Positions 11,424 through 64,000 of a stretch of DNA of 64,000 nt are shown piece after piece (positions within the stretch are counted from its first letter, which is position 1; each line of letters opens with the position of its first letter). Source of the stretch: Stutzerimonas balearica DSM 6083 (GTDB taxonomy: Bacteria > Pseudomonadota > Gammaproteobacteria > Pseudomonadales > Pseudomonadaceae); assembly GCF_000818015.1 (NCBI RefSeq), contig NZ_CP007511.1, positions 3,110,501 to 3,174,500 of the forward strand, in the 5' to 3' direction. A program made the translations under genes and the position numbers. A model generated the notes under the pieces. That model saw only the letters and a program-made list of their open reading frames with translations. It searched no databases and was not told the DNA's origin.

Positions 11424-11497
11424 GCGGGCGTCGTATAATGGCATTACCTGAGCTTCCCAAGCTCATGACGAGGGTTCGATTCCCTTCGCCCGCTCCA
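11424..11497 (+). tRNA. tRNA-Gly (anticodon CCC)
   Basis: A 74-nt cloverleaf: acceptor GCGGGCG pairs with CGCCCGC, anticodon stem TGAGC/GCTCA encloses loop TTCCCAA with anticodon CCC, the T arm is AGGGTTCGATTCCCT, the discriminator is T and CCA is encoded. The integrase gene begins about 240 bp downstream in the same direction, the usual arrangement of a tRNA gene used as an ICE target. Confidence 0.95.
11480..11497 (+). other. Probable ICE attachment site (attL) in the tRNA 3' end
   Basis: The last 18 bp of tRNA-Gly correspond to the portion used by ICEclc-type integrases at glycine tRNA genes, and composition and gene content change right after it. The matching attR copy lies beyond the window, so the exact core is inferred. 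Confidence 0.6.
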
Positions 11498-11734
11498 CTG
11501 CATCATTCTGCGGACTTCCGCAGAAGTCCAAGAGAGTCTGCAAGTCGTTGCCACACAAAGACTTTTTCTCTCTTTGACGTTCTGCTGTGGTCCACTGCGA
11601 TCCGCCTACAGCCGGGACTTTTAAGTCCACAAACAAGTCCATTTTTGCGGGCGCGGCTGATTCCGGATTGTTGATGGAGAGGCGAGGTCGACGTGACCAG
11701 CATCTGGTTCCTGACTCATGTTCGGAGCAAGAGC

Positions 11735-13588
11735 ATGGCACTCTCAGACCTGGCCGTTCGACAGGCCAAGGCGACTGGCAAGGCATACACCCTCCCTGAC
11801 CTGGATGGCCTCTCCCTGGCCGTCACCGCTGCCGGTGGCAGGACTTGGCACTTCCGCTACTACTGGGCGGGCAAGCAGAAGCGGATGTCGCTCGGCACCT
11901 ACCCGGAGGTGACGCTTCGCGAGGCCCGCAGCCTGCGCGATGAAGCGCGCGCCCTGCTGGCCAAAGGCACCAATCCTCGCGATCACCGCAAGCAGAAGCG
12001 CACCGCTGTCCGGCTCGCCGACGAAAACACCTTCGAGGCGGTGTATCGCAAGTGGCTCAAGCATCGCGGGCTCAGCCTCAAGGAAGGCCGGCAGACGACT
12101 CTCTCGATCCTTCCGCGCATCTTCGACAAGGATGTGCTGCCGACCTTGGGCAAGCAGTCGATCTATGAGATCAAGCGGCCCGACCTCCTGGAGGTGATCG
12201 CCAGGATCGAGAAGCGCAGGGCGCTCTCCGTCGCCGAGAAAGTCAGGACGTGGTTCAACCAACTGTTCCGCTACGCGCTGGTGATCGTGCCGGGCCTGGA
12301 GCAGAACCCCGCCTTCGATCTCGATGTGGTGGCGCTGCCGCTGCCACCCGTCAACCACAACCCGTTCCTGCGCATGGCCGAGCTGCCAAGGCTGTTGCAG
12401 CGGCTGCGCAGCTATCGCGGCCGGCGGCAGACCCAGCTCGGGCTGCGGCTATTGCTGCTGACCGGCGTGCGAACCGGAGAGCTGCGGCAGGCGATGCCGG
12501 ATCAATTCGATCTGGACCGAGGGCTGTGGATCATCCCGCCCGACGTCGTGAAGCAACTCCAGGTGGATATGCGCAAGAAGCGGCAGCAGCCGAAGGACAT
12601 CCCGCCCTACATCGTGCCGCTGTCGATTCAGGCCATGGAGATCGTCCGGCACCTGCTCGATGAGTTCAAGCCGGCCCAGCGCTACCTGTTCCGGCACGAC
12701 AGCGACCTGAAGAAGCGCATCAGCGAGAACACGCTCAATGGTGCGCTCAAACGCATGGGCTATCAGGAACGCCTGACCGGACACGGTATCCGTGGCACGA
12801 TGTCCACTGCGCTCAACGAGATCGGCTACCCGAAAGTCTGGGTGGATGCACAGCTTTCGCATGTCGATCCCAACAAGGTCAGCGCGACCTACAACCATGC
12901 CGCGTACGTGGAGCAGCGTCGACGCATGATGCAGGACTGGGCCGATCGCCTCGACCTCTTCGAGCAGAACCAGGTCGAGGCGGCCAGCATGCCGCTCACC
13001 GTGCATCTGGAAGGCGTGCCCGCATTCCCCACTGAGCAAACCGCAAGCGCGCCCTCTACGCCGGTTGCCGCTTCGCCAAGCCTGCTCGTGACGAAGCCGG
13101 GTGACGCCATGCCGTTGGTTTCTGCCGCCGCACATCGGCTGCCGGCAGTGCCGCCCCAGCGATCGGCCGCGCCGCTGGTACCTTCGGACATTCAGCGCGA
13201 GAGAATGGATTTGTTCGATGTCTTCGAAGCGCCGCACAACCTTCCCGTCGCTGCGTTTGCCAAGATAGCGGGCAAATCCCGCAGGTGGATCAGCTATGAG
13301 ATCCAGGCGGGCAACTTGCTGGCTTTGAACGTGGGCAACCGCGGCCAGCGCGTGCCGGACTGGCACCTCGACCCGCTCAAGCACGAGCTGATCCAGTCTG
13401 TCCTGAAGCTGACCAGGGGTGCGGACCCTTGGCAGATCTACCATGCACTGCTGCAGCCGCGCTCGATGCTGCGGGGGCGCTCGGCACTGGAGGGCGTGAC
13501 TGCCAGCAATCTCGACAAGCTCGTCATGGCCGTGAGCACAGCGGTGAAGGAAAGCGAATGGACCCCGCTGCGGGTCGGGGTCGTGTAG
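11735..13588 (+). CDS. int: ICE tyrosine integrase (P4/ICEclc IntB13 type)
   Basis: 617 residues. The DUF4102 N-terminal arm-binding domain (LSDLAVRQAKATGKAYTLPD, then GKQKRMSLGTYPEVTLREAR) is followed by a core-binding and a catalytic domain with R in LTGVRTGELR, HxxR in HGIRG and the nucleophile Tyr in ATYNHAAYVEQRR. A roughly 200-residue C-terminal extension, as in ICEclc-type integrases, follows. The ATG at 11735 with GGAGC is preferred to an upstream in-frame GTG. It integrates and excises the element at tRNA-Gly. Confidence 0.93.
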   Translation: MALSDLAVRQAKATGKAYTLPDLDGLSLAVTAAGGRTWHFRYYWAGKQKRMSLGTYPEVTLREARSLRDEARALLAKGTNPRDHRKQKRTAVRLADENTFEAVYRKWLKHRGLSLKEGRQTTLSILPRIFDKDVLPTLGKQSIYEIKRPDLLEVIARIEKRRALSVAEKVRTWFNQLFRYALVIVPGLEQNPAFDLDVVALPLPPVNHNPFLRMAELPRLLQRLRSYRGRRQTQLGLRLLLLTGVRTGELRQAMPDQFDLDRGLWIIPPDVVKQLQVDMRKKRQQPKDIPPYIVPLSIQAMEIVRHLLDEFKPAQRYLFRHDSDLKKRISENTLNGALKRMGYQERLTGHGIRGTMSTALNEIGYPKVWVDAQLSHVDPNKVSATYNHAAYVEQRRRMMQDWADRLDLFEQNQVEAASMPLTVHLEGVPAFPTEQTASAPSTPVAASPSLLVTKPGDAMPLVSAAAHRLPAVPPQRSAAPLVPSDIQRERMDLFDVFEAPHNLPVAAFAKIAGKSRRWISYEIQAGNLLALNVGNRGQRVPDWHLDPLKHELIQSVLKLTRGADPWQIYHALLQPRSMLRGRSALEGVTASNLDKLVMAVSTAVKESEWTPLRVGVV

Positions 13589-13624
13589 TCAAACAACGGG
13601 CCGGTAAGGGATGGCCTGGACATT

Positions 13625-13726: not shown

Positions 13727-14713
13727 ATGGAACTTCTCGTACTACCGAACAATCGCCGCTTGCCTTTTGATTCCGGTGCCAACCTTTTGGAAGTGCTCCG
13801 TGAGCACCGTGTGGGTATTTCCTACAGCTGTATGTCTGGACGATGCGGTACTTGCCGCTGCCGAGTTATAGATGGCAGCGTCATTAGTTCGGCGGCGAAA
13901 AGCGGTGACTCAAATCGCATCGAAGAGCATTATGTACTCGCCTGTCAGTCAGTGCTCACCAGCAATTGCGCAATTGAGATCATAGACTCAGACGACATAG
14001 TCACTCACCCGGCGCGAATCATCAAAGGCATGGTTGTCGCCGTCGAGTCGCCCACTCACGATATTCGCCGCATCCGCATTCGCCTCGCCAAGCCCTTCGA
14101 GTTCTCACCCGGACAGTACGCGATGCTACAGTTCAGTCCCGAACATGTGCGTCCATATTCAATGGCTGGTCTGCCAGATGACCAAGAAATGGAGTTCCAT
14201 ATCCGCAAAGTGCCGGGCGGGCGTGTCACGGAGTATATTTTCGAGCACGTCCGCGAAGGTACAAGCATTAAGTTGAGTGGGCCTCTTGGTACGGCCTATC
14301 TGCGTCAGGCTCACACCGGGCCGATGCTGTGTGTGGGCGGCGGGACCGGACTCGCACCGGTGCTGTCGATTGTTCGCGGCGCGCTGAAGTCGGGAATGAC
14401 GAACCCCATCCACCTTTATTTCGGGGTGCGCAGTCAGCAAGACCTTTACGACGCAGACCGATTGAACCAACTCGCGGCTATCCACCCTCAACTGACTGTC
14501 CATACAGTGATCGCGACGGGCCCGATTAATGAGGGCCAGCGGGCCGGCCTAATTACCGATTTGATTGAAAAAGACATTCCCTCGCTGGCTGGGTGGAGAG
14601 CCTACCTGTGCGGCGCACCAGCGATGGTTGACGCTCTATGCACCGTCGCCAAAGATCTTGGAATATCGCCCGAGCATATTTATGCCGACGCCTTCTATCC
14701 CAGCGGGGTCTGA
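13727..14713 (+). CDS. nahAa: Naphthalene dioxygenase ferredoxin reductase
   Basis: 328 residues. A plant-type [2Fe-2S] domain (1-90; [11 protein letters not shown] and a later LACQS) is fused to an FAD-binding domain (RPYSMAG) and a NAD-binding domain ([15 protein letters not shown]). It passes electrons from NAD(P)H to ferredoxin NahAb. Sequence and gene order follow the NAH7/NCIB 9816 upper operon (nahAaAbAcAdBFCED). It is the first gene of the operon, and GC content falls well below that of the host genes. Confidence 0.93.
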
Positions 14714-14856
14714 ATTGCCCCGACCCTGCACCTCTGTACATCGAGAATTCATCAGGAAGACACTTAAATGAGCATCACTAACAACAGCCGCGTCTGAATA
14801 TTTAGGACAGCTGGATGATCTCTAACTCCATCATTACCCCATTTGAAGATAGCTTT

Positions 14857-15171
14857 ATGACAGAAAAATGGATTGACGCAGTCGCTCTTTATGAAATCCC
14901 TGAAGGTGACGTCCTCGGCGTGACAGTCGAAGGTAAGGAACTAGCGCTGTATGAAGTGGAAGGCGAAATCTACGCTACCGACAACCTGTGCACACATGGT
15001 GCTGCCCGCATGAGTGATGGCTTTCTAGAAGGCAGAGAAATTGAATGTCCTTTGCATCAAGGTAGATTTGATGTTTGCACAGGCAGGGCCTTGTGCGCCC
15101 CTGTGACACAGAACATCAAAACATACCCGGTGAAGATTGAGGGCCAGCGTGTGATGATTGATTTGAGCTGA
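14857..15171 (+). CDS. nahAb: Naphthalene dioxygenase Rieske ferredoxin
   Basis: 104 residues with the Rieske ligands C-x-H in CTHGAA and C-x2-H in CPLHQG. It shuttles electrons from NahAa to the oxygenase. The start at 14857 ([14 protein letters not shown]) matches the family; an in-frame ATG at 14815 has a better-looking GGAC upstream but would add 14 foreign residues. The 143-bp gap after nahAa contains only a 9-codon open frame. Confidence 0.93.
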
Positions 15172-15240
15172 GAATTTTAATAGGAGGCACCCCGGACCCT
15201 AGAGCGTAATCCCCCCCATTCGATCTCTTTAGGTGAAAAT

Positions 15241-16590
15241 ATGAATTACAAAAATAAAAACTTGGTGAGTGAATCTGGGCTGACCCAAAAACACCTGATT
15301 CATGGCGACGAAGAACTTTTCCAGCGCGAACTGGAAACCATTTTTGCTCGGAACTGGCTTTTCCTGACTCATGACAGCCTGATTCCGTCCCCTGGCGACT
15401 ATGTTACGGCAAAAATGGGGGTTGATGAGGTTATCGTCTCCAGGCAGAACGACGGTTCGATTCGTGCTTTCCTGAACGTTTGTCGTCACCGTGGCAAGAC
15501 GCTGGTACACGCAGAAGCAGGTAATGCTAAAGGTTTCGTTTGCAGCTATCACGGCTGGGGCTTCGGCGCTAACGGTGAACTGCAGAGCGTCCCGTTTGAA
15601 AAAGAACTGTATGGCGAGGCGCTCGACAAGAAATGTATGGGATTGAAAGAAGTCGCTCGTGTAGAGAGCTTCCATGGCTTCATCTATGGTTGCTTCGATG
15701 AGGAAGCCCCTTCTCTCAAAGACTACATGGGGGACGCTGGCTGGTACCTGGAGCCTATGTTTAAGCATTCCGGAGGGCTAGAACTGATCGGTCCTCCAGG
15801 AAAGGTCATAATCAAGGCTAACTGGAAAGCGCCCGCGGAAAACTTTGTGGGGGATGCGTACCACGTGGGTTGGACGCATGCGGCTTCGCTTCGCACAGGG
15901 CAGTCGGTCTTCTCGTCGTTAGCTGGCAACGCAGCTTTGCCCCCAGAAGGTGCAGGTCTGCAAATGACCTCCAAATACGGCAGCGGCATGGGTGTGTTGT
16001 GGGACGGATATTCAGGCGTGCACAGCGCAGACCTGGTTCCGGAATTGATGGCCTTCGGCGGTGCTAAGCAGGAACGGCTGAACAAAGAAATTGGCGAGGT
16101 TCGCGCACGAATCTATCGTAGCCACCTCAACGGCACCGTTTTCCCGAACAACAGTTTTCTGACCTGCTCGGGTGTCTTCAAGGTATGGCACCCGATCGAC
16201 GCAAATACCACTGAGGTATGGACCTACGCCATGGTCGAAAAAGACATGCCCGAGGATCTCAAGCGCCGCTTGGTCGACGCGGTTCAGAGAACGTTTGGGC
16301 CTGCTGGCTTCTGGGAAAGCGACGACAACGACAATATGGAAACGGAATCGCAAAACGCCAAGAAATATCAGTCCAGAGATGGCGATCTGGTTTCCAACCT
16401 GGGTTTCGGCGGGGACGTATACGGCGACGAGGTTTATCCTGGCATCGTCGGCAAATCGGCGATTGGCGAGACCAGTTATCGTGGCTTCTATCGGGCTTAC
16501 GGCGCGCACATCAGCAGCTCTAGCTGGGCTGAATTCGAGGATGTCTCTAAAAATTGGCATACCGAACTGGCAAAGACTACTGATCGCTAA
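15241..16590 (+). CDS. nahAc: Naphthalene 1,2-dioxygenase large (alpha) subunit
   Basis: 449 residues, the same length as the crystallised enzyme, so family numbering applies. Rieske ligands are C81, H83, C101 and H104; the mononuclear iron triad lies in NFVGDAYHVGWTHA (Asp205 bridge, His208, His213) and in GFWESDDNDN (Asp362). It is the catalytic subunit of the alpha3beta3 oxygenase that forms cis-1,2-dihydroxy-1,2-dihydronaphthalene. Local codon use is AT-richer than in the host core. nahAd follows after 15 bp. Confidence 0.96.
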   Translation: MNYKNKNLVSESGLTQKHLIHGDEELFQRELETIFARNWLFLTHDSLIPSPGDYVTAKMGVDEVIVSRQNDGSIRAFLNVCRHRGKTLVHAEAGNAKGFVCSYHGWGFGANGELQSVPFEKELYGEALDKKCMGLKEVARVESFHGFIYGCFDEEAPSLKDYMGDAGWYLEPMFKHSGGLELIGPPGKVIIKANWKAPAENFVGDAYHVGWTHAASLRTGQSVFSSLAGNAALPPEGAGLQMTSKYGSGMGVLWDGYSGVHSADLVPELMAFGGAKQERLNKEIGEVRARIYRSHLNGTVFPNNSFLTCSGVFKVWHPIDANTTEVWTYAMVEKDMPEDLKRRLVDAVQRTFGPAGFWESDDNDNMETESQNAKKYQSRDGDLVSNLGFGGDVYGDEVYPGIVGKSAIGETSYRGFYRAYGAHISSSSWAEFEDVSKNWHTELAKTTDR

Positions 16591-16605
16591 CAGACGAGAG
16601 GGACC

Positions 16606-17187
16606 ATGATGATTAATATTCAGGAAGACAAGCTTGTCTCCGCCCACGACGCCGAAGAGTTTCTTCGTTTCTTCAATTCCGGCGACGAGGCTTTGCAACA
16701 AGAAGCTACCACGTTGCTAACCCGGGAAGCGCATCTTTTAGACATTCAGGCTTACCGCGCCTGGTTAGAGCACTGCGTGGACTCAGAGGTGAAATATCAG
16801 ATTATCTCACGCGAACTGCGCTCAGCTTCCGAGCGCCGTTACCAGCTCAATGAAACCATGAACATTTTCAACGAGAATTATGAACAACTGGAAGTTCGCG
16901 TAGCGCATCAACTGGATCCGCAAAACTGGGGCAATAGTCCAAAGGTGCGCTTTACTCGTTTCATCACAAATATCCAGGCTGCAATGGACGAAAATGAAGA
17001 TTTGCTTCACATTCGCTCCAACCTAATTGTTCACCGAGCACGACGCGGCAATCAAGTCGATGTCTTCTATGCCACTCGGGAGGATAAATGGAAGCGCGGC
17101 GAAGATGGAGCGCGTAAGTTGGTCCAACGATTGATTGATTATCCAGAGCGCACATTCCAGACGCACAATGTGATGATCTTTATGTGA
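16606..17187 (+). CDS. nahAd: Naphthalene 1,2-dioxygenase small (beta) subunit
   Basis: 193 residues of the ring-hydroxylating dioxygenase beta family (cone-shaped NTF2-like fold), with conserved DIQAYRAWLEHC and FTRFITNIQAAMDENED. Structural partner of NahAc; no cofactor ligands. It starts with two Met codons, the first after GAGAGGG. Confidence 0.94.
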   Translation: MMINIQEDKLVSAHDAEEFLRFFNSGDEALQQEATTLLTREAHLLDIQAYRAWLEHCVDSEVKYQIISRELRSASERRYQLNETMNIFNENYEQLEVRVAHQLDPQNWGNSPKVRFTRFITNIQAAMDENEDLLHIRSNLIVHRARRGNQVDVFYATREDKWKRGEDGARKLVQRLIDYPERTFQTHNVMIFM

Positions 17188-17256
17188 CCCAATAATCGCC
17201 TTTACAAATGGTGACTGCTACAAGCTGTCCCATTGTTCAAAAGGAAATTTGTGTGT

Positions 17257-18036
17257 ATGAGCAATCAACAAGTCGTTTCGATAACCGGTGCTGGCTCAGG
17301 AATTGGTCTCGCACTGGTTCGATCCTTTAAGTCCGCCGGTTATTGCGTATCCGCTCTCGTACAAAACGAGGAGCAAAAGGCGAGCCTTTGCAATGAGTTC
17401 AAGGACGCACTCGAGATCGTCGTGGGCGATGTCCGGGACCACGCAACAAATGAGAAGCTGATAAAGCAAACAACCGATAGATTCGGCCATCTCGATTGTT
17501 TCATTGCAAATGCCGGTATTTGGGATTACATGCTTGGCATCGAAGAGCCTTGGGAGAAAATATCGAGCAGTTTTGATGAGATATTCAACATCAATGTCAA
17601 GAGCTATTTCAGCGGTATCAGGGCCGCCCTGCAGGAACTGAAAAAGACTAGCGGATCAGTGGTGATGACCGCTTCAGTGTCGTCCCATGCGGTCGGTGCT
17701 GGTGGTTCTTGCTACATCGCCAGCAAGCATGCGGTCCTGGGCATGATGAAAGCTTTGGCTTACGAATTGGCTCCCCACATTCGCGTCAACGCCGTAGCAC
17801 CGGGCGGCACTGTGACGTCTCTGAGCGGTCCCGCAAGCGCCGGCTTCGACAAAACTCACATGGAAAACATGCCCGGTATCGAGGACATGATCAAGGGTCT
17901 AACGCCTCTTGGATTTGCAGCCAAGGCCGAAGACGTAGTGGCACCCTATTTGTTGTTGGCGTCGCGAGATCAAGGGAAATTCATTACCGGGACTGTCATT
18001 AATATAGATGGAGGGATGGCGCTCGGTCGCAAGTAG
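17257..18036 (+). CDS. nahB: cis-1,2-dihydrodiol naphthalene dehydrogenase
   Basis: 259-residue short-chain dehydrogenase. NAD-binding GAGSGIG near residue 9, NAG in IANAGIWDYM, catalytic Ser in TASVSSHA and YxxxK in CYIASKHAV are present. It oxidises the cis-dihydrodiol to 1,2-dihydroxynaphthalene. The ATG at 17257 follows AAGGAAA; an upstream in-frame TTG is rejected because it adds a tail not found in NahB. Confidence 0.94.
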   Translation: MSNQQVVSITGAGSGIGLALVRSFKSAGYCVSALVQNEEQKASLCNEFKDALEIVVGDVRDHATNEKLIKQTTDRFGHLDCFIANAGIWDYMLGIEEPWEKISSSFDEIFNINVKSYFSGIRAALQELKKTSGSVVMTASVSSHAVGAGGSCYIASKHAVLGMMKALAYELAPHIRVNAVAPGGTVTSLSGPASAGFDKTHMENMPGIEDMIKGLTPLGFAAKAEDVVAPYLLLASRDQGKFITGTVINIDGGMALGRK

Positions 18037-18083
18037 GTTTGTCGCCTATCTTGAAATAATAACTAAATTTCTGGTAAAACCGC

Positions 18084-19535
18084 ATGAATACAAAATTGTT
18101 TATCAACAATGTCTGGGTCAATTCCAGTGACCAACAGACCTTCGAGCGAAAGCACCCCGTCAGTGGTGAGGTGATGACGGAGTGTGCAAACTCCACGGTG
18201 ATGGATGCGTTAAAGGCCGCGCAAGCTGCCCAAGAGGCTTTCCAGACCTGGAAGACTGTTGGACCTTCGGAGCGTCGCCGCCTTCTGCTGAGGGTCGCTG
18301 AGGTTATGGAAAGTAAAACACCCGAGTTTATCGAAGTGATGGCCAAGGAGGTGGGAGCCTCCGCTCTTTGGGCCGGCTTCAATGTCCAGATGTCAGCCAA
18401 TGTGTTCCGTGAAGCGGCATCGCTGGCTACACAAATTCAGGGGGAAACTATTCCGACAGACAAGTCTGACACGCTCTCAATGACGCTACGTCAGCCGGTC
18501 GGTCCGATCCTGAGCATCGTGCCGTGGAACGGCACCGCAGTGCTGGCGGCACGAGCCATCGCTTATCCGCTGGTCTGCGGCAACGCGGTGGTATTCAAAG
18601 GTTCTGAGTTTAGTCCCGCGACGCATGCCCTGATCACCCAGTGCGTGCAGGAAGCCGGGCTGCCTGCTGGCGTGCTCAACTATCTCAACTCTTCGCCTGA
18701 CCGTTCGCCCGAGATCGCCGACGCACTGATCTCAGCCAAGGAGATCCGACGCATCAACTTCACGGGCTCCACCCGCGTGGGCAGTATTATCGCGCAGAAG
18801 GCCGCGCAACACCTCAAGCGCTGCCTGCTGGAGCTCGGTGGCAAGTCCCCACTTATTGTTCTGGATGACGCGGACATCGACGCAGCTGTCAAGGCAGCGG
18901 TGTTCGGTAGCTTCCTGTTCCAAGGTCAGATCTGCATGTCCACTGAGCGCTTGGTGGTTGATGAGAAGATCGCCGACGAATTTGTCGCCAAGTTTGCCGA
19001 AAAGGCCAAGCGTTTGAGCGCGGGCGACCCATGCGTAACTGGCGACTGCATCATCGGCCCAATGGTCTCGCCAAATTCAGGCGAGCGGATCAATGGTTTG
19101 TTCAAGGACGCGATCGACAAAGGAGCCACAGTTGCCTGCGGCGGCATGGCCCAAGGTGCGGTCATGCCGGCCACGATCCTGGATCACGTCAAATCCAACA
19201 TGCGGATCTACGATGAGGAGACCTTCGGTCCCATCACTGTGGTGATCCGTTGCAACGGCGAAGCAGAGGCCATTCGCATTGCCAACGACAGCGCCTATGG
19301 CCTGTCGTCGGGCGTATTTGGCCGCGACATCAACCGTGCTTTGCGCGTGGGCATGTCCATCGAATATGGTTCAGTGCACATTAACGGATCGACTGTCCAA
19401 AGCGAGGCGCAGGCTCCATACGGAGGCACTAAGAACACTGGCTACGGGCGCTTCGACGGCCGTGCTGTGATCGATGAGTTCACAGAGCTCAAGTGGCTGA
19501 CCATCGAGCCTTTCGAGCAGCAGTATCCCTTCTAA
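18084..19535 (+). CDS. nahF: Salicylaldehyde dehydrogenase
   Basis: 483-residue aldehyde dehydrogenase. General base Glu in LLELGGKSP, nucleophile Cys in FQGQICMSTERL, NAD-site segments PWNGTAVLAARAIAYPLVCG and FTGSTRVG, and EETFGP are all present. It oxidises salicylaldehyde to salicylate, ending the upper pathway. Its position between nahB and nahC is that of the canonical operon. Confidence 0.94.
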   Translation: MNTKLFINNVWVNSSDQQTFERKHPVSGEVMTECANSTVMDALKAAQAAQEAFQTWKTVGPSERRRLLLRVAEVMESKTPEFIEVMAKEVGASALWAGFNVQMSANVFREAASLATQIQGETIPTDKSDTLSMTLRQPVGPILSIVPWNGTAVLAARAIAYPLVCGNAVVFKGSEFSPATHALITQCVQEAGLPAGVLNYLNSSPDRSPEIADALISAKEIRRINFTGSTRVGSIIAQKAAQHLKRCLLELGGKSPLIVLDDADIDAAVKAAVFGSFLFQGQICMSTERLVVDEKIADEFVAKFAEKAKRLSAGDPCVTGDCIIGPMVSPNSGERINGLFKDAIDKGATVACGGMAQGAVMPATILDHVKSNMRIYDEETFGPITVVIRCNGEAEAIRIANDSAYGLSSGVFGRDINRALRVGMSIEYGSVHINGSTVQSEAQAPYGGTKNTGYGRFDGRAVIDEFTELKWLTIEPFEQQYPF

Positions 19536-19562
19536 TAAGCACTAACTCCAAGGAATCAAACT

Positions 19563-20471: not shown

Positions 20472-20877
20472 AACTACAACCAAAGTTACAGGCGCAGGCT
20501 CTCTTCCAGATATGCGTTGGGGAAAATTACTTATGCTCCTGCAGTATTAATTTTCCCGATTTTGCTCCGGTTCACCCTCACATCGGGGCTGTAATAGATT
20601 ATGCAAGGATCGTGGCGAATGAGGATGCTAGTCTCAGTCGTTCGATGCAGATCATGCATGGGGCCCAGCACTGCAAGTTCATGTTGACTTAACGAGCGAC
20701 TGGCTCGTTAGTATTGATATCCGGAAGCTGTTCCTTAAACCGAACGTATAAAGGTGATTGGGCTCCAAGAGGCTACAGCTACGGTAACTCTAGATCCGTA
20801 ATTTGGAGTCGGTCGCGATTGGACAACGATTCTGACTAACCTAGTTCCAGCTTTTTTACCTAACCAAGAGTGTCTCC
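20472..20877 (+). other. Gap between nahC and nahE, no intact gene
   Basis: 406 bp with stops in all forward frames. In NAH7-type operons nahQ lies here; no intact equivalent is visible, only short open stretches. A ribosome-site-like AAGAG stands before nahE. Confidence 0.6.
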
Positions 20878-21882: not shown

Positions 21883-22140
21883 TCCAACTCGATTGGTCTG
21901 GCGAAATGCTGGAAAAGACGCTGAACGATTTGAAATATATTAGATTAATCATATTTCTTGCGCTACTAGTAGGCGTCGCCAGTTCGGCAAATTTAGCTAA
22001 GACTGCTAGTCTCGCAGACTCGGGTGTGAAGTCAGGCTTTAGGAATACCGAATGAAGCCAGCATATCAAGCCGACGATGGGTGCCATCCTTGATGAGGCA
22101 ACCCACTGTTGGTTGGCTTAGTTTTTTGGAGTGTTTGATT

Positions 22141-23185: not shown

Positions 23186-23293
23186 AACGTGCTGGTAGAA
23201 TTACGCGGCTCGTGTGGGCTTTTCTAAGGTTGCGGGCAGTTTGCTTTTAGTGATGTTGTATCCCAAAAACAAAATTAATAAACGGTGGAACAT

Positions 23294-27118: not shown

Positions 27119-27137
27119 GGCCGTGGATTATACCGGC

Positions 27138-54660: not shown

Positions 54661-56063
54661 GGCGTACCGCTCCGCGGCTTCTGGACTTCCCGCAGACGGT
54701 CGCGCGTGGTGTCGCCCTCGAAGACGCCGCGCGAACCAGCAGCGCGGGTGCTGTGGCGCTGGATGATCGCCATCGCCGAGTTGCCGGCCAGCGTGCGCCG
54801 CAGCTCCAGCTCGGTCTTGAGGTTGTTGATCTCCTGCTCCAGCGCACTGTTCTCCTGGTCGACCGCCTGCACGGCCAGTTCGTTGGCGGCGACGTTCGGC
54901 TCCTTCTTGCCGGTCAGCAACGTGCGTTGCAGCAGCAAGGCCTTCTCCAGCACGCTGGACAGCGCCGCCTCCGACGCCAGGCGCTTGCCCAGCACGTCCT
55001 GGTCGGGTTCATCACGCAGGGCCTCGATCACGCCGCGGGTGATCGGCAGCGAGCTGCTGCCGGCCGCGTCGAGATTGGTCGGCGTCGTCGGCCGGGCGCC
55101 CGTCACCAGCTCCTGCAGCACCTGCAGCTTGGCCTCGTACTCTTCCTGGATCACTGGCGTGAGCCCGACGCCAGGCGTGGTCTGGGTCTTCGTGCAGTTT
55201 TCGCAGGTGCGTTGCTCGCGTTCGCCCAACACGCGGGTCGCCCAGTCCGCGGCCGCGCCAGGCGACGACCAGGTTTGGCAGGTCAGGCGGTTGCTGCAGG
55301 CGCTGCGCGCGATCGACGAGGTATCGGTGGCGCTGCGCCCGTTGAGCAGGTTGTAGCCCGCTCGCGTCACGTCGCCGACCACCTTGATCGAACTCTGGCC
55401 GGAGCCGCCCGCGTTGCCGCCGCCGACCCAGGGCACGCCGTTGTTCCCTTTGTTGGACTCGGCCTGCTCGATGGCGGAGACGGCATCGGTGCTGCTGACC
55501 GCATCCCGCAGCGCCATCCCCTCGGCGAGCTGGTCCCAGCCGGCCTGGCCGCCGGCCATGTCCGCCATGCGATTGGCGATGGCCCGGCAGGTCATCTTCG
55601 AGCGGTCGAAATCCAGGCGCGCCTGCAGGAGGCCGTTGGTGAGCAGGTTGTACAGGCCCGGGTCGGCGCGCTGGATGATCAGGGCCGGCAGCGAGGCCAC
55701 GGCGCTGGTGGCGTTCTGGATCACGTTGCTCATGATCGTTTGGAAGCCGTTGGTGATGCCGTTGAGCTGGTTCTGCAGTGTCGTGGTGATACTCATGTCG
55801 CCGCAGATCAGGTTGCTGTTCCAGCCGACGCCGACGCCGATGCTCTGCATGTTGCCGGCACCACCCATCGACACCGCCCGGCCGCCGCCGATGCTGTAGA
55901 GCACGTCGTCGCCGATCACGCTGCCGCTGACGTTCACGCCATTGGGGTCGATGCGGGTCTGCGCCCAGGCGACGCCGACGACCAGCGTGATGGCCGCCAC
56001 GAGCAGCGTGGCCCGCAGGGGCGATTTCGCGCGGCGCAGGAAATCAGGGAGGGAGGCGTTCAT
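54657..56063 (-). CDS. Integrating conjugative element protein, TIGR03755 (PFL_4711) family
   Basis: 468 residues from ATG 56063. Signal peptide 1-35 (ends VGVAWAQ). The secreted part begins RIDPNGVNVSGSVIGDDVLYSIGGG, with Cys pairs (ICGDMS; MTCRAI; CSNRLTCQT; CENCTKT) and a coiled-coil-prone C-terminal third (VDQENSALEQEINNLKTELE). Conserved T4SS-associated periplasmic protein of PFGI-1-class ICEs. Confidence 0.87.
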   Translation of the reverse strand: MNASLPDFLRRAKSPLRATLLVAAITLVVGVAWAQTRIDPNGVNVSGSVIGDDVLYSIGGGRAVSMGGAGNMQSIGVGVGWNSNLICGDMSITTTLQNQLNGITNGFQTIMSNVIQNATSAVASLPALIIQRADPGLYNLLTNGLLQARLDFDRSKMTCRAIANRMADMAGGQAGWDQLAEGMALRDAVSSTDAVSAIEQAESNKGNNGVPWVGGGNAGGSGQSSIKVVGDVTRAGYNLLNGRSATDTSSIARSACSNRLTCQTWSSPGAAADWATRVLGEREQRTCENCTKTQTTPGVGLTPVIQEEYEAKLQVLQELVTGARPTTPTNLDAAGSSSLPITRGVIEALRDEPDQDVLGKRLASEAALSSVLEKALLLQRTLLTGKKEPNVAANELAVQAVDQENSALEQEINNLKTELELRRTLAGNSAMAIIQRHSTRAAGSRGVFEGDTTRDRLREVQKPRSGTP

Positions 56064-56073
56064 CGTGGGTTCC

Positions 56074-57018
56074 TCACATGAAATCGACGCTGCCGAGGAA
56101 GACCTGGCCACGGCGCCGGCAGCAGGAGTACGGCCGCCACAAGGCCCAGGCGTAGTCGCCCTGCTGGGCCTGCACGCGGGTGCGGCTGTGCGGGAAGACC
56201 ACGCAACTGTTCGAGAGCGTGGGCGTCAGCTCCTGCCACTTGCCCGTCGAGGCGTCGGTCTCCATCAGCGCGCCGGCTGGCCAGTAGCCGTCGCGGGCGT
56301 TGGCCAGCAGGGGCTGATACACGTGAATCTGGTTGCGGCGCGTCACGATGTCGCCCGCGCGCTGCGCGACCACGGCGCCGCTCTTGTGGTCGTCGGTCTG
56401 GTGCAGGAAGCCACCGCGGGGATACACGTTGCCCCAGAGGTTCAGGCCGGTGCGCGTACCGATTTCGCGCCGGCCGGGGATGAGCGCTTCGGGGTAGAAC
56501 GCTTCCGGGATGTTGTAGCGCCAGGCGATCGTGTCGAGCGTGCTCAGCAGATACGGCATGAAGGCCGTGCCAGCGCCTTCGCAGGTGTAGCCGGAGGCGC
56601 TGGCGAACTGGCTGAACACCAGCCCGGCCGGATGGCCGATGACATCGGCGTTCTTGAACTTGGCGAGGTTGTTCTCGTTGTCGTGATTGGTCGTGCCGTC
56701 ACCGCCAGCCTTGGCGGTCGGGTTGGGCATGCTCATCGCCCTGACCTCCAGCCACGGGTTTTCGCCGGTGTTCGAGTAGCTCGACACCACCGCATCGGGG
56801 ACGTAGTGGCGCACCTTGACGGAGGTGCGAACCGAGCAGCCGAAGGGCGTGCAGTACAGCCAGTAGCAGATACCGACCACGCGGTATTCGAGGCAGTCGG
56901 GGGACAGCGCCGACGAGACGATGGTGGCGGTGTCCAGGGCGAACGTCGACGTGGCCGCGCTCAGCAGCAGCGAGGCGGCGGTGGCGCGCAGGCGCCGGCG
57001 TGCCAGCAGGAGGCTCAT
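56074..57018 (-). CDS. Integrating conjugative element protein, TIGR03756 (PFL_4710, TraU-like) family
   Basis: 314 residues. Signal peptide (MSLLLARRRLRATAASLLLS, cleavage before LDTATIV), then SPDCLEYRVVGICYWLYCT and a Cys-rich C-terminus YSCCRRR, resembling TraU of F-type systems. Periplasmic mating-pair factor. Its start overlaps the preceding TIGR03757 stop by 4 bp. Confidence 0.87.
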   Translation of the reverse strand: MSLLLARRRLRATAASLLLSAATSTFALDTATIVSSALSPDCLEYRVVGICYWLYCTPFGCSVRTSVKVRHYVPDAVVSSYSNTGENPWLEVRAMSMPNPTAKAGGDGTTNHDNENNLAKFKNADVIGHPAGLVFSQFASASGYTCEGAGTAFMPYLLSTLDTIAWRYNIPEAFYPEALIPGRREIGTRTGLNLWGNVYPRGGFLHQTDDHKSGAVVAQRAGDIVTRRNQIHVYQPLLANARDGYWPAGALMETDASTGKWQELTPTLSNSCVVFPHSRTRVQAQQGDYAWALWRPYSCCRRRGQVFLGSVDFM

Positions 57019-57458
57019 GGCTGCGTGCTCCGGTAGGCGTTGATGCGCGCGACGGCGCGGGGCACGTCGGGCTCGCCGTAGACCACGTAGCGTCGATCGA
57101 CCACCACGGCGGGAATCTTGGCGATGCCCAGTCCCCAGGCATCCGCGACACCTTGATAGGCGTGGCCGATGCGGCGCTGAAGGGCCTCGCCGCCGCCATG
57201 CAACCGCTGCCGCACCACGGCTGCGGCCTGTTGCGGGTCGGCCGGCAGGTGCGCGGCGAGTTCGACCTCGATGCGCGTGGCCTGGTCCAGCTCGATGATC
57301 CGCACGCCGGCCGGGGCCTGCACCGGATGACGGCTGTCGGTGACGACGAGCACGTCGGCTGCTGCAGTCTGGGTAAACATGAACAGCACTGCCCACAGTC
57401 CGGGCGCAATGCTGATGGTCGGCAGCCGGGGCGAAGCCTTGAAGACGGGGGCCGGCAT
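57015..57458 (-). CDS. Integrating conjugative element protein, TIGR03757 (PFL_4709) family
   Basis: 147 residues with a signal peptide (to about residue 34, TAAA) and a thioredoxin-like TrbC-type domain lacking CxxC (DAWGLGIAKIPAVVVDRRYVVYGEPDVP), similar to the F-plasmid TrbC family. First gene of the 57458-to-52768 operon. A 7-bp inverted repeat GAAACCG (57523)/CGGTTTC (57544) stands upstream and may mark its promoter. Confidence 0.85.
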   Translation of the reverse strand: MPAPVFKASPRLPTISIAPGLWAVLFMFTQTAAADVLVVTDSRHPVQAPAGVRIIELDQATRIEVELAAHLPADPQQAAAVVRQRLHGGGEALQRRIGHAYQGVADAWGLGIAKIPAVVVDRRYVVYGEPDVPRAVARINAYRSTQP

Positions 57459-57601: not shown

Positions 57602-58120
57602 TCAGGTGCGGGACGCTGAGGTGCCCGCGAACCCAAGAAACGCATGCTGTAAGCGAATCGGCATCGACGGCTTGGAGCGTGCATGTAGGCTCTGCCAAGT
57701 CCCGTCACTGATGTCGCTCGGGGCGAGGCGATCTACCGAGCGCGAAACTCTTCTCAAGTAAGCGTTGACGCCATCCGCGGATTCCGAAGGAGCGCCGGCA
57801 AGAACGTACCCCACCATGAAGCCGATAGCATGGTTCTCGCCGTACTTCTCCTGGATGAATCGATCCATGCCCTCGACGACGTACTCTCGACACAAGTGAG
57901 TGTCCGACCCGGCGATTCGTTTGCATTCGATGATCGCGTGCGGATCATGCTCCTGCGTGCGCAAGAAAATTTCGACGAACGCCAGCGGGATGTCGGTACG
58001 TCCGTCTGGCAGCATCACGTTGCTTTTGGATCGCGATTCCGTGCCAGGCAGCACCATGATCTGCTTCCACGGGGAGTTCTTCAGCGCAATGCGCATCCCG
58101 TCCCGCAGGCGCTCGGTCAT
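57602..58120 (-). CDS. PD-(D/E)XK nuclease-like protein of a putative modification cassette
   Basis: 172 residues from ATG 58120, chosen because GGAGAGG lies 5 nt upstream. MLPDGRTDIPLAFVEIF followed by HAIIECKRIAG has the layout of a PD-(D/E)XK core (Asp, then E-x-K after a beta strand), and GENHAIGFMVGYVL gives the next strand. No named family recognised. An alternative TTG start at 58273 would overlap the methyltransferase stop and add 51 residues. It is the third gene of the HTH-methyltransferase cassette; nuclease activity is inferred. Confidence 0.6.
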   Translation of the reverse strand: MTERLRDGMRIALKNSPWKQIMVLPGTESRSKSNVMLPDGRTDIPLAFVEIFLRTQEHDPHAIIECKRIAGSDTHLCREYVVEGMDRFIQEKYGENHAIGFMVGYVLAGAPSESADGVNAYLRRVSRSVDRLAPSDISDGTWQSLHARSKPSMPIRLQHAFLGFAGTSASRT

Positions 58121-58269
58121 GATTACCTCTCCAGCGTTGGCATTCACGTCCTCGGCTGCGCATGCTCGCTGCCAACCTGCGGCCAGTGTCAGCAGAATGA
58201 CCGCCACAACCTCGGGCTCAAGTTCAATGAACTCTCTGCCCAGTGCAGGAGGTGCCTCATAGGGGATCC

Positions 58270-61233
58270 TCAAACTTTGCCCCCTGAAAAGCTCTCCGCG
58301 ACCACTGCATCGGCATCTTCCAGTGCCGCTATGCCCATCCAGTAGCGCCGCGCTGCTGGCTTGATGATCACGACTTCGTTGCGTCCGTGTACTCGCAATT
58401 CCCGCTCTGCACTGAGCGCGGTCGCAATCTTGACTTTCAGGCGCCTGCCGATACGTGCCAGTACTTCACCCAATTCGCCTTGTGGTGCCACGACGCTCAC
58501 GCTCGCATTACCCGGCCCTTCTTCCAAGACAAAGCGCACGACGCGCAAGGCCGAACTGCTTGGCAAGTCGAGCACTTCGGCGCGCATGTGCCGCTTATTG
58601 CGAACGGAAAGCCAATCCTCGATAACGGACAGGAACGTCTTGGCATACGCCGTGACCTCAGTACGACTGTCCGATGGCTCCACGGATGATTCGCGGCCGG
58701 TTTCCCATTGCCACCCGGCGCGAAGGAGGCCGTCTCGAATGACAGTTCGGTCGGCATCGTTCAGTTCGTACAGATCGAAGACAGCTTCGTCCAGTTCAGC
58801 CCATCCCCTCTCGTCGGTGCCGTTGGCGCGCAGATTCTTCTCAATCTGCAGCAGGCGCTGGCCAGCCTCAGATTTCACTGCGCTCGTGAAATTAGGCACC
58901 GGTAGGAAGCTGAGGTCGCGAGCCAGCAGCTTCCTCTTGTAGATTCCAAACTCTGCAGCGGTCAGATAGAAGAACCATGTCGCAAAAGCAGAACTCAACA
59001 CGGTGGCAAGCAAATGTGCCGTCCGCGTGTGCCCTCTCGGAAGAGACACTGCGAAGTATGAGTTCGTGAAGACGAGATCCCGCTCGGAGACGGCCGCCAA
59101 GACGCGTGGACTCCCCAGAAGCATTTCCTTCACGATGAGAAGCGGGGCTTGATATATCTCCCGCGATCGTGGCCATTGTGCCTTCGATTGGCTGAAAGTC
59201 GGCAAATCATCGGGAATGTTGAAGTGCTGCATGTCTTTGACTTGCAGTACATCCAATCCTTTTAGCGGGCGAGCATCGCGCGTCTGATTCTCTGGGGCCC
59301 CGCGAATCAATCCAACCTGGAAGGTAGTGTCGAGTAATGAGAGTTGCTCGCCCAGATTTCTGTGGGCCGAAGTCAAGTCATCCAGCAATAGGAGGTCACG
59401 GCGCCGGCCAACGGCTGCTGCCTTGAGCTTCAACGGCTGTTCTTGGATTTCGTCGAGTGTCAAAGTGATGACGTCACTCGGCGCCACCTCGAACGAATGA
59501 GTCCTTGCACCGCTGGGCGTCCACGGGATCTGAACGACCGTGACCTGATCCGTTCGCTGCTTCGGTCGATGACGGGCAAAGAGAACCACTGCGGGCATGG
59601 CCGCTGTCGCGAAGAGCCAACTGCACAAATTGGACAGATTTACCAAGGTGATCGGAGCCACGGCTCGCATCACATGCTGAGCTGCTGCCATGCCGGTGCC
59701 GCTGCGGCTGAAGAACGGCATCGCGCTAAGAATGATGCCGAAACGGGTCTTCTCATGTGAGAACTCCGCCGCTCGCAACACGAAATCCAAGCCTTCACCG
59801 CGCGGTTGCGCAGGTACGCCCGCAACCCTGGTCTTGCGCCGCGCTTCGGTTCCTGTCTGCCCCCTAAAGCTCCAAGGGGGATTGCCCACGATAAGGTCGA
59901 ACTGCTTCAGCCCTGCCGGCGTCGCCAGCACGGCCTTGCCATCTCCATCACGTTCGACAGTACGAGCGTCACCGACGAGCAATGTCCTGCCGATCAATGG
60001 CTGGAACTTCAGGGACTGCGGTGGTTGCGGGTCAGGGTCCAGCTCAAGCGCAGCCAGGTACAGGCTGAACGCAGCGACGCGAATCGCGGCTTCGCTAATG
60101 TCTACGCCATACACCTGCCCGTAGAGCGTCGAGCGGATCAGCTCCCTCGTGGGCGGCTGACCTTGCGAGCGAAGATGAACCAAGCGCCGCAGCGCTTCGA
60201 CCAGGAAGACACCGGAGCCGCACGTCAAATCCAGCACCGACTCCCGTCCAGATAGACCATCCATGACCTCATCGAGGACCAGCGAGACGACGGACAGTCG
60301 CGTGTAGTGCACGCCGTTTCGCAACGCTTCTGTGCGCTTTCCTCCAGTCTGCGGCTCAGCATGTGCAAACTGCTCGTAGATCGAGCTGATGAGCTCGACC
60401 GGAATCACGTCGAACTGGTACGGGAAGAAGCTGAGTTGCCCGCTTTCAGGATCGACAGCCTCCAGGAACTCCGCAACCCGCGTCAAATGGTGAGCTGCTG
60501 GTGTCGTTTTCACCGACGAGGGCGGAAACATATCGCCGTTGAAGGTCTGGGCCAGCCATGCGAACAGCTTGCTGGTCGCTGGCCGGTCGCGCAGGATCGC
60601 CGGCAACGCCGTGCGGCCGCATACCCGCTTCAACCGCGCCGCACTGACGATCTCGCGGTCAATCAGGTACTGGGTGAAGATCACGCGCCCAATCAAGGCC
60701 TGCGCCGCATCGCGCGCGAGATTGCCTGCGACCAAATCGCGTTCGAGACATCCAAGGTCAGACAGGAGCTTCTGATCGACGCTGGTCTTGCGATCGATGG
60801 CCGGCACCTGGGCCCAGAATTGGCCCGTCTCGATCGCCAGTCGGCCGGCCAACTCGTCCAGTTCATGAAGCGAACCTTCGATGTTCTCGAAACGCCGAAT
60901 CAAATGTCTCTGGGCATCGCCTTCTTTCGCGGGTGTGCCGAAACCGTTGTACAGGTCGATACGCTGCGGCGAGATCACCCACAGCAACGGCGCGAACCCC
61001 TCGTTCCAGACCTCTCGTCGCCACTGGCTGACCAGATCGTCTGCAGGCGCGCTTTGCTCAAACTTGAAGTAGACGGTCAACGACGACGCGCTGCGCCACA
61101 ATGCGTCCGGAACAAAAACGCGGCCGTGGCGCGAGGACTGCGCCTCGGCCCCCAACCGAAGACCGGGCGCGGGTTGCCCGTCCGGCAGGTAGCCGGTTGC
61201 GGCGAGCACCTGTTCCAGCGTGGCAGTGTTCAC
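58270..61233 (-). CDS. Large N6-adenine DNA methyltransferase (Eco57I/type IIG-like)
   Basis: 987 residues. The N-terminal 200 residues resemble restriction-type domains (VPDALWRSASSLTVYFKFEQ; LWVISPQRIDLYNGF) but show no clear E-x-K. SAM-binding motif I VLDLTCGSGVFLVEAL lies near residue 335, catalytic motif IV IVGNPPW near 455, and a target-recognition-like C-terminal half follows. It methylates adenine in DNA; whether it also cuts is unknown. GTG start overlaps the HTH gene stop (GTGA). Lower GC than the neighbouring conjugation genes. Confidence 0.85.
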   Translation of the reverse strand: MNTATLEQVLAATGYLPDGQPAPGLRLGAEAQSSRHGRVFVPDALWRSASSLTVYFKFEQSAPADDLVSQWRREVWNEGFAPLLWVISPQRIDLYNGFGTPAKEGDAQRHLIRRFENIEGSLHELDELAGRLAIETGQFWAQVPAIDRKTSVDQKLLSDLGCLERDLVAGNLARDAAQALIGRVIFTQYLIDREIVSAARLKRVCGRTALPAILRDRPATSKLFAWLAQTFNGDMFPPSSVKTTPAAHHLTRVAEFLEAVDPESGQLSFFPYQFDVIPVELISSIYEQFAHAEPQTGGKRTEALRNGVHYTRLSVVSLVLDEVMDGLSGRESVLDLTCGSGVFLVEALRRLVHLRSQGQPPTRELIRSTLYGQVYGVDISEAAIRVAAFSLYLAALELDPDPQPPQSLKFQPLIGRTLLVGDARTVERDGDGKAVLATPAGLKQFDLIVGNPPWSFRGQTGTEARRKTRVAGVPAQPRGEGLDFVLRAAEFSHEKTRFGIILSAMPFFSRSGTGMAAAQHVMRAVAPITLVNLSNLCSWLFATAAMPAVVLFARHRPKQRTDQVTVVQIPWTPSGARTHSFEVAPSDVITLTLDEIQEQPLKLKAAAVGRRRDLLLLDDLTSAHRNLGEQLSLLDTTFQVGLIRGAPENQTRDARPLKGLDVLQVKDMQHFNIPDDLPTFSQSKAQWPRSREIYQAPLLIVKEMLLGSPRVLAAVSERDLVFTNSYFAVSLPRGHTRTAHLLATVLSSAFATWFFYLTAAEFGIYKRKLLARDLSFLPVPNFTSAVKSEAGQRLLQIEKNLRANGTDERGWAELDEAVFDLYELNDADRTVIRDGLLRAGWQWETGRESSVEPSDSRTEVTAYAKTFLSVIEDWLSVRNKRHMRAEVLDLPSSSALRVVRFVLEEGPGNASVSVVAPQGELGEVLARIGRRLKVKIATALSAERELRVHGRNEVVIIKPAARRYWMGIAALEDADAVVAESFSGGKV

Positions 61234-61706
61234 GCCCTACTCCGGATAGCTTCGGGTGGAAACGGCAACGCTGCCTGGCTCGGCGTCGGGACGATCGGCA
61301 GCATGTGCTGCTGAAGCCGCATGATCAACGGATCGAGCGGGATGACGAGAGTCGGTTGCGTCGGCGCCGGTCCAATCCCCTCGGGGCCGATATCGCACAG
61401 GGTCGCCGAAGTGGCCGTCACGAACGCCACGGACCCATTCAGCGCCAATGCGCTACTCGTGCCCAGCAACCGAAAGAGCGCGTCAACGCCGACGCTGACG
61501 GTGGCGATGTGCACTCCCAACGAGCTGACCAACTCATTGGTAACGGCCAAGCCTAGGAGATCCGCGAAGGTGAATCGGGCAGCCTTCCCGGTCTTGGACG
61601 CCAAGTAGGGCACGGTCTTGCGCCAATGCCGCACCGTTTCGACGGACACGCCGGTTAGCGTGCGCATCTGGTCCTGAGTGTACTGGATGGCGGTGACGGC
61701 AGACAT
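61230..61706 (-). CDS. MerR-like helix-turn-helix protein
   Basis: 158 residues from ATG 61706 (a TTG at 61721 is an alternative). YTQDQMRTLTGVSVETVRHW is a MerR-type helix-turn-helix that continues KTGKAARFTFADLLGLAV; the rest (LVIPLDPLIMRLQQHMLPIV) has no known ligand motif. First gene of the cassette and probably its regulator or specificity partner; coupled to the methyltransferase by overlap. Confidence 0.75.
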   Translation of the reverse strand: MSAVTAIQYTQDQMRTLTGVSVETVRHWRKTVPYLASKTGKAARFTFADLLGLAVTNELVSSLGVHIATVSVGVDALFRLLGTSSALALNGSVAFVTATSATLCDIGPEGIGPAPTQPTLVIPLDPLIMRLQQHMLPIVPTPSQAALPFPPEAIRSRA

Positions 61707-61896: not shown

Positions 61897-62391
61897 CTAC
61901 AACAAGCCGGCTTCGGCGAACGAGTACGGGCTGCCCTTGCCGACGATGAAGTGATCCAGCACCCGGACATCGACGGTGGCCAGGGCGCTCTTCAGCCGCT
62001 CGGTGATCACACGATCAGCGGCCGAGGGCTCGGTGTTCCCCGAGGGATGCTGATGCGCCAGGATCAGCGCCGAAGCGTTGAGCGCCAGCGCACGCTGGAC
62101 CACCACCCTCGGATACACCGAAGTCTGGTCGACCGTGCCCTTGAACAGCGGCTCGTAGGCGAGCACCTGGTGCTGGTTGTCGAGAAACACGACGGCGAAG
62201 ATTTCGTTCGGCTCCGCGACCAGTTTCAGGCGCAGGTAGTCGCGCACGGCGGCGGGACTGCCCAGCGCCGGACCGGCCTTGAACACGCGGTTCTCCAGCA
62301 GGGTGATGGCCTGCTGGATGATCCAGTCTTCGTGCTGGGCGGCGATCAGGGTGAGCGACTCCGGGCGGGAGTCGGCGATGGCAAGAGACAT
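61897..62391 (-). CDS. radC: RadC-family (JAMM/MPN+) protein
   Basis: 164 residues from ATG 62391. The metal site HxHPSGxxxPSxxD is intact ([19 protein letters not shown]). RadC-like genes are common on ICEs and prophages, with suggested roles in DNA processing or defence; the activity is not established. It lacks the N-terminal HhH region of housekeeping RadC, as usual for the mobile form. Confidence 0.9.
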
Positions 62392-62586
62392 GGCGAACCT
62401 CCAATGGATGAGATCGGAGGGCGCCTGCCCCAGGAGGGCACACCCTCCGGGGGACGATGGGGATGGAACAGGTGACGAGCGGGCATCCACCACCGCGGAT
62501 GCGGTGGCTGTTCGCGTCAAGGGATGCGATGCGAACGGGTTTCGATCAACGCGGACGAGCCGCGCCGCAGCCTTGAAGATCGATGG

Positions 62587-63330
62587 CTACCTGGGCATGT
62601 CACCGGCGACGCCGGCGGGCATGTCTGGGGAATGGGCGGGTTCGGCCGCGGTCGTGCTGCCGGCGGCGAGCAGGTCGATGGCCGACAGCAAGGCATCGCC
62701 TTCGACGGGACCGTGCAGCAGGAGGGTCTTGCCGGACTCGCGGTCGCGCAGTTGCAGGGCCGGCGTGGCCGCGATGCCCTGCTGTGCTGCTTCCGCCGCC
62801 TGGGCACGGATGACGGCATCGGGGCGCTCGCTGTCGAGACAACCCTGCATGGCCGGCGTGAGGTCGGGATAGCGCAGGCCCTCCGGCAGGCCCTGGCCGT
62901 CGCCACGGGTGTTTGCGTAGAGCCAGGCCACTGCCTGCCAAAGCGCGGCGTGTCCGCCCGTCTCGCCCGCGCACTCGGCCAGGCGTGCCCCGGCAGTCGC
63001 GGCCGGCTCGTGCATGGACAGCGGCAGGTGGTGCCACTGCCAGTTCACCTCGGGATGGGCGTCGATCCAGCGCTTGAGTTCGGGGAAGTAGGCCCGGCAG
63101 TACGGACACTCCAGGTCGGCGTAGCCGACCACCGTGAAGCGCGCATCGGCACGGCCATACAGCCAGGGCGGGCCAGCCGGTTTCGGCCCCTCGGACCCGG
63201 CGGCGGCCAGGGGCATGGACTCGGTTGCCGGATGCGGCGCGCGCAGCAGCATCCACGAGGCAACCGCAATCGTCACCACGATCAGCAGACCGATCCAGGG
63301 ATGACGGCGGGCGAATGAGGGCAGGCGCAT
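62587..63330 (-). CDS. DsbA/DsbG-like thioredoxin-fold protein of the ICE
   Basis: 247 residues from ATG 63330. N-terminal membrane anchor (HPWIGLLIVVTIAVASWMLL), then the thioredoxin fold with the CPYC active site in YADLECPYCRAYFPELKRWI and a cis-Pro loop IAATPALQL. It probably oxidises or isomerises disulfides of the Cys-rich mating proteins encoded alongside. 13 bp after the ATPase stop, same operon. Confidence 0.87.
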   Translation of the reverse strand: MRLPSFARRHPWIGLLIVVTIAVASWMLLRAPHPATESMPLAAAGSEGPKPAGPPWLYGRADARFTVVGYADLECPYCRAYFPELKRWIDAHPEVNWQWHHLPLSMHEPAATAGARLAECAGETGGHAALWQAVAWLYANTRGDGQGLPEGLRYPDLTPAMQGCLDSERPDAVIRAQAAEAAQQGIAATPALQLRDRESGKTLLLHGPVEGDALLSAIDLLAAGSTTAAEPAHSPDMPAGVAGDMPR

Positions 63331-63343
63331 CGTGTCGCTCCCG

Positions 63344-64000
63344 TCAGGCCAACGTATCCAGCGCCAGCGGTTCGATGCCCCGCGCACGGTCGATCTTCTC
63401 GGCCACGCGGAAGGCGGCGTCCAGCTCGCTGATGCCGTGCTGCTGCATCAACTGGAAGCGTTCGGCCTTCTCTTCGGGCTCGGTCATCGCCATCGCCAGG
63501 TAGAGGCTGGGCGGCACGGCGCGGAACAGCACTTCCATCGACTTGGACAGGATGACGCCCTCGCTGAACTTGCCGGCCTCCTTGCGGGCCGAGAGCATCA
63601 GCGCCTTCTGCGAAGCGTTGAGTTCGCGGAAGCGCGCGATCTTCTCGACTTCATCGGGCGGCATCGACAGGCAGATCCACCACTCGATCATGTTGAGCAT
63701 GGGCTCGGCCGCTTTCGGCAGGTCGTCCAGGTTCTGCGTGGCGAGCCAGAACCAGGCGCCGAGCTTGCGCCACATCTTGGTGATCTTGACCACGTAGGGC
63801 GCGAGCAGCGGGTTCTTCGTGATGATGTGGCCTTCGTCCGTCACGTTGATGATCGGGCGGCCCAGGAACTGGTCGCGCTCGGCGATGTTGTTGACGGTGT
63901 TGATGAGCGAGATGTAGGCAATCGAGAGTTGGGCGTTGTAGCCCTCGCGCGCGAAGGTGGCGAGATCCACGATGGTGATGTCCGCCTCGGGCCACGGCGT
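63344..64000 (-). CDS. Conjugative transfer ATPase (VirB4/TraC type, TIGR03744), C-terminal part, cut by window edge
   Basis: The 218 visible codons carry the Walker B segment INVTDEGHIITKNPLLAPYV and the following sensor region WFWLATQNLDDLPKAAEPML, which typify VirB4/TraC ATPases of ICE type IV secretion. Energises pilus assembly and DNA transfer. The Walker A half lies beyond position 64000. Confidence 0.88.
   Translation of the reverse strand, partial: TPWPEADITIVDLATFAREGYNAQLSIAYISLINTVNNIAERDQFLGRPIINVTDEGHIITKNPLLAPYVVKITKMWRKLGAWFWLATQNLDDLPKAAEPMLNMIEWWICLSMPPDEVEKIARFRELNASQKALMLSARKEAGKFSEGVILSKSMEVLFRAVPPSLYLAMAMTEPEEKAERFQLMQQHGISELDAAFRVAEKIDRARGIEPLALDTLA

Follow-up and report, generated by a model that had tools for sequence, protein, structure and literature searches.

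Integrative and conjugative elements (ICEs) of the ICEclc type that carry naphthalene (nah) genes have been described in strains CSV86, DSM 6083, AN10 and others, and what we say of them follows the parts of three papers that bear on these elements (PMC9298801, PMC10234333, PMC8704644). PMC9298801 describes ICEnahCSV86 of Pseudomonas bharatica CSV86T, cites its transfer into another species and, in its Table 2, places the nah-sal genes of P. balearica DSM 6083 on an ICE. According to PMC10234333, DSM 6083T grows on naphthalene and salicylate, and its predicted ICE carries the upper pathway for naphthalene and the meta-cleavage pathway for catechol. PMC8704644 proposed ICEnahAN10, a putative element of P. 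stutzeri AN10 described as having the nah operons in the same type of core with att repeats, and reported that excision and transfer were shown for the sister ICEbph-salKF716, whose 18-bp ends are the same as those found here. By the description in that paper, ICEclc of P. knackmussii B13 belongs to the same core-gene family and inserts at tRNA-Gly(GCC), with a different att sequence, the int of ICEclc and that of ICEbph-sal being 66% alike. Here we analysed a window of 64,000 nucleotides (genome positions 3110501-3174500) from the chromosome of P. balearica DSM 6083T (CP007511, 4,383,480 bp), a strain without extrachromosomal elements (PMC4841123). An earlier sequence-only reading of this window had seen in it a naphthalene-to-central-metabolism pathway carried as cargo of an ICEclc-type ICE, and the ends, gene content and collinearity of the element support this. 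We consider it very likely that the window is part of an ICEnahCSV86-type ICE of the ICEclc/ICEbph-sal family, working by the integrase/MobH/type IV secretion system (T4SS) mechanism set out below. Since the three papers describe such elements, the ICE counts as already known, that of DSM 6083 having been in print before; the reading as an ICE is right but not new.

The naphthalene ICE of DSM 6083T measures 120,801 bp and lies on one chromosomal contig. Its first 52.5 kb, about half, fall within the window, and the element runs about 68 kb past the window end, to position 132280 when the window numbering is extended downstream. The repeat of the tRNA 3′ end that the sequence-only reading had proposed to seek downstream was looked for in about 100 kb fetched beyond the window and then in the whole genome. 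The 18-bp att core, TTCCCTTCGCCCGCTCCA, was found in exactly two copies in the whole chromosome. Both read along the + strand, and they are the attL and attR of Table 1. A chance origin of the repeat was rejected: the reversed core, used as a control, had no match genome-wide, and about 0.0001 copies of the core would be expected by chance. As had been read, the integrase stands beside the tRNA gene at one end, pointing inward. Its open reading frame contains a PRK09692-type integrase domain (E 7.2e-60, 202.7 bits, which does not reach the curated cut-off of 434 for this model), and its relatives are 79-100% identical (80 loci kept of 423 found). Of the 14 tyrosine integrase matches genome-wide, it is the only one between the ICE ends. 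The family assignment of the integrase rests on the integrase region of pKF715A, not on IntB13 itself.

The sequence-only reading had further put the MobH relaxase, TIGR03755-57 and a VirB4-type gene at the other end of the element. These genes are all present, though they do not form the far end, as the ICE continues well beyond them, and the remaining core genes expected downstream were found there. Gene calls were made with a simple codon-bias script, so that starts are approximate; 117 genes were called in the ICE, and the family-library scans covered the named ones. Above the curated cut-offs were MobH (the single such match in the genome), TIGR03744 (VirB4), 03745, 03746, 03747, 03748 (PilL2), 03749, 03750, 03751, 03752, 03754 (TraD), 03755, 03756, 03757, 03758, 03759, 03765 and RAQPRD. 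Family searches also detected TopB and a ParA-like ATPase, while no ParB model matched among the ICE proteins scanned. A putative origin of transfer (oriT) was located by mapping the ICEnahCSV86 stretch from its published coordinates, with their orientation inferred; counted from the attL end these coordinates gave a match in this ICE, but counted from the attR end they gave none. The region bears clustered motifs, five GCCTTT and two CCCTTT, vs. 0.22 and 0.05 expected per 400 bp (coordinates and motifs as given in PMC9298801).

The use of the integration site was followed in relatives at the 19 best-scoring tRNA-Gly(CCC) loci, from 55 relatives searched. At nine of the 19, the sequence right after the tRNA matched, in register, 34-44 of the first 44 bp beyond attR (86-98% identity over this stretch), as expected of an empty integration site; the 44-bp stretch looks like the own terminator of the tRNA gene. 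At six of the 19 loci the same tRNA is joined to the left end of an ICE of this kind, 96.7-100% identical over 1.5 kb. With nine loci of the empty type and six with an ICE left end, the tRNA-Gly(CCC) locus is therefore a shared insertion site. Several relatives from the genus also have further copies, 27-47 bp long, of the tRNA 3′ end on the same strand about 6-109 kb downstream, pointing to other elements at this site.

The cargo comprises the upper nah block (13727-22779), the lower, meta-cleavage operon and, between these two, nahR, all on the element as the sequence-only reading had stated. When 22 NAH7 proteins were compared, 21 were matched, 20 of them over the full or nearly full length at 66-96% identity; nahQ gave only a weak partial match, a remnant, and for nahY there was no match in this ICE. 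The nahR gene, which lay outside these 22 proteins, is named from pLIB119 only. Among the eight lower-pathway proteins scanned in NCBIfam, seven scored above the curated cut-off that applies to the enzyme of their step, and nahN (an alpha/beta hydrolase) fell under it. The GC content is 52.48% for the nah cluster and 63.13% for the sal cluster, close to the values of 52.18 and 62.11 given in PMC9298801, the small gap probably arising from different cluster borders.

By analogy with its relatives, the integrase would recombine the two 18-bp repeats to yield an excised circle and a restored tRNA-Gly(CCC) locus; MobH would then nick the oriT just upstream of mobH, and TraD together with the TIGR037xx T4SS would export the DNA strand. 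The upper operon of the cargo converts naphthalene to salicylate, and the lower operon degrades salicylate by way of catechol and its meta-cleavage, yielding pyruvate and acetyl-CoA, with both operons presumably controlled by NahR, as known from the literature. We infer that excision, transfer and regulation by NahR would proceed in this way in DSM 6083T, and that its ICE would be self-transmissible.

The gene order could also be read as two adjacent elements, a nah island with its integrase and an unrelated ICE, or a remnant of one, owning the conjugation genes. Insertion sequences and several inserts do lie between the integrase and the T4SS, and in pKF715A the common core was traced no further than the RAQPRD gene, after which come 45 kb of other genes. 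However, the stretch between the ends contains neither a second tyrosine integrase nor a third att core, pKF715A keeps the order of integrase, sal operon and MobH/T4SS at 94.7-99.4% identity, and two other chromosomes (those with ICEnahCSV86 and KOS6) have the att-to-att layout seen here. On the att core count, the single inner integrase, the collinearity and the pKF715A order, we rejected the division into two elements as extremely improbable; the conjugation genes belong to the ICE that carries nah. Neither of the two findings that the sequence-only reading had named as speaking against it, a missing attR repeat or conjugation genes on a separate element with ends of its own, was made.

It is unlikely, in our judgement, that the ICE is a decayed and immobile island, which has kept its ends and genes and lost excision and transfer. 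Such a decay would fit the inserts seen within and near the core region, but the core proteins span nearly the full length of their models, attL and attR are identical, copies of the left end at this tRNA in other species reach 100% identity, and the nah/sal genes matched to NAH7 are open reading frames. Several observations weigh against a working ICE of the ICEnahCSV86 type: the core carries large inserts at 57.6-61.7, 71.7-89 and 95-107 kb; 39 of the 117 genes have no counterpart (at least 80% identity over 90% of the length) in ICEnahCSV86, and 29 have none in KOS6; four of the 19 tRNA loci, one of them ending at a contig end, show neither an empty site nor this ICE; and, in the passages concerned, PMC10234333 says that its ICE predictions need confirmation and PMC9298801 that transfer was validated for none but CSV86. 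We are surer of the identity and ends of the ICE than of its working mechanism, and we rate the overall reading below the former because decay into an immobile island would contradict that mechanism.

Table 1. Features of the naphthalene ICE and its surroundings (window coordinates; "extended" continues the window numbering downstream of 64000)
Feature	Coordinates	Strand	Evidence
tRNA-Gly(CCC), integration target	11424-11497	+	ARAGORN
attL, 18 bp, 3′ end of tRNA-Gly(CCC) gene	11480-11497	+	exact-repeat scan
In-window part of ICE	11480-64000		att ends
Tyrosine integrase adjoining attL	11693-13588	+	domain search
nahAa, nahAb (14857-15171), nahAc, nahAd: naphthalene 1,2-dioxygenase	13727-17187	+	80-92% protein identity to NAH7
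nahB, nahF, nahC, nahE, nahD: upper pathway to salicylate	17257-22779	+	78-93% identity to NAH7
Outer-membrane transport protein adjoining upper operon	23285-24694	+	pLIB119 annotation, 99.7% DNA identity
Insertion-sequence zone between upper and lower modules (IS66 tnpB, IS5/ISAch1)	25099-31715		names from pLIB119
Second FAD monooxygenase	29247-30716	-	salicylate_mono model, 170 bits, under 446-bit cut-off
nahR, LysR-type activator	32319-33221	-	annotation of near-identical pLIB119 region
Lower (sal) operon nahG-T-H-I-N-L-O-M-K-J-X, catechol meta-cleavage	33377-43036	+	NCBIfam and NAH7 comparison
MobH relaxase (TraI, PFGI-1 class)	48464-50290	-	370 bits, cut-off 200
oriT-like region, start of mobH and just upstream	50044-50419		376 bp, 94.7% identical to ICEnahCSV86 stretch
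AbiEii/AbiEi type IV toxin-antitoxin pair	50494-52207	-	family search
TraG_N mating-pair protein	52768-54291	-	family search
TIGR03755, TIGR03756, TIGR03757 T4SS genes	54657-57458	-	all above curated cut-off
Insert beside TIGR03757: type IIG-like restriction-methylase, MerR-like regulator	57602-61706	-	family searches
RadC-like and DsbA/thioredoxin-fold proteins of core	61897-63330	-	family search; same order in pKF715A
VirB4-type ATPase TIGR03744	63344-66223, past window end at 64000	-	1475 bits, cut-off 521
Nested 349-aa protein	L003:17149-18198 (downstream stretch; L003:7896 = extended 71696)	+	
attR, exact copy of attL	extended 132263-132280 (genome 3242763-3242780)	+	exact-repeat scan

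Within the insertion-sequence zone between the upper and lower modules, sequence comparison showed repeats 415 and 593 bp long. The zone includes the second FAD monooxygenase, which we take to be possibly a salicylate hydroxylase of the NahW type. A continuous 33.4 kb of the ICE (12651-46066) recurs at 98.95% identity in plasmid pLIB119 of S. decontaminans 19SMN4 (NZ_CP007510.1, 49856-83269). The nah-sal cassette of pLIB119 looks captured from an ICE because its copy begins inside the integrase gene; judging from the sequences, gene traffic probably ran from the ICE to the plasmid, and the cut integrase would be its scar.

Between the T4SS blocks, at extended positions 71696-87674, there is a BREX system with BrxF, BrxC, PglX, BrxH, PglZ and BrxA, a gene set which we take to be type III; a gene for a 67-aa protein that matches mads_1 comes before it. 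Two additional genes are nested in the system, between pglX and brxH: one encodes a 640-aa AAA/DUF3696 ATPase, the other a 349-aa protein that fits no known family and gave no significant Pfam or PADLOC match. The latter occurs in one of 298 genomes of the bacterial family, namely this one, and has 646 homologues elsewhere (E up to 0.001), the 120 matches listed being 76-91% identical and 346-363 aa long. It represents an unnamed, strongly conserved family, which may be a BREX accessory. Far outside the ICE, at genome positions 2287529-2288017, a second, partial MobH match under the cut-off lies in an open frame of 376 aa. Tyrosine integrases stand not far from it, at 2298747 and 2304981, and together these are possibly the remnant of another element.

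Among the closest known relatives of the DSM 6083 ICE, ICEnahCSV86 has the same tRNA, 18-bp attL, integrase, nah-sal cargo and core order; in blocks of at least 600 bp it is collinear from att to att, covering 69.7% of the DSM 6083 ICE at 93.4-99.3% identity, and the KOS6 element is likewise collinear, covering 72.5% at 91.9-99.7%. Counterparts were found for 78 of the 117 genes in ICEnahCSV86 and for 88 in KOS6; the genes lacking one in ICEnahCSV86 include nahC and TopB, both full length in KOS6. The type IIG-like insert is absent from ICEnahCSV86 and present in KOS6, whereas the BREX system (71.7-87.7 kb) and the 95-107 kb block are in neither. The attR is an exact copy of attL in DSM 6083 but a one-mismatch copy in ICEnahCSV86, changed at the 9th base in the contig and at the 13th in the attR published in PMC9298801.

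In pKF715A of the ICEbph-sal family (KF716), where bph replaces the nah upper operon, the integrase region is 99.4% identical to that of DSM 6083, the sal and MobH/T4SS segment 98.8% (to 57359), and the stretch 61897-66666 94.7%. NAH7 has the same upper and lower nah gene order, with the protein identities given above, but its carrier is a MOBF plasmid, while the DSM 6083 ICE lacks an intact nahQ and a nahY match. Similarly close nahAc genes (E up to 1e-150) occur in five of the 56 genomes searched in the genus, DSM 6083 included, and one of the five carriers appears from its coordinates to be pLIB119. Taken together, the results fit the view that an element of the self-transfer type, which uses one tRNA site across species, can be the carrier of chromosomal nah loci in this group. 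This view has already been published for CSV86, AN10 and DSM 6083; to it we add the exact ends in DSM 6083T, the evidence for the empty site in relatives, a cargo map that includes defence modules, and a plasmid that has apparently captured part of such an ICE.

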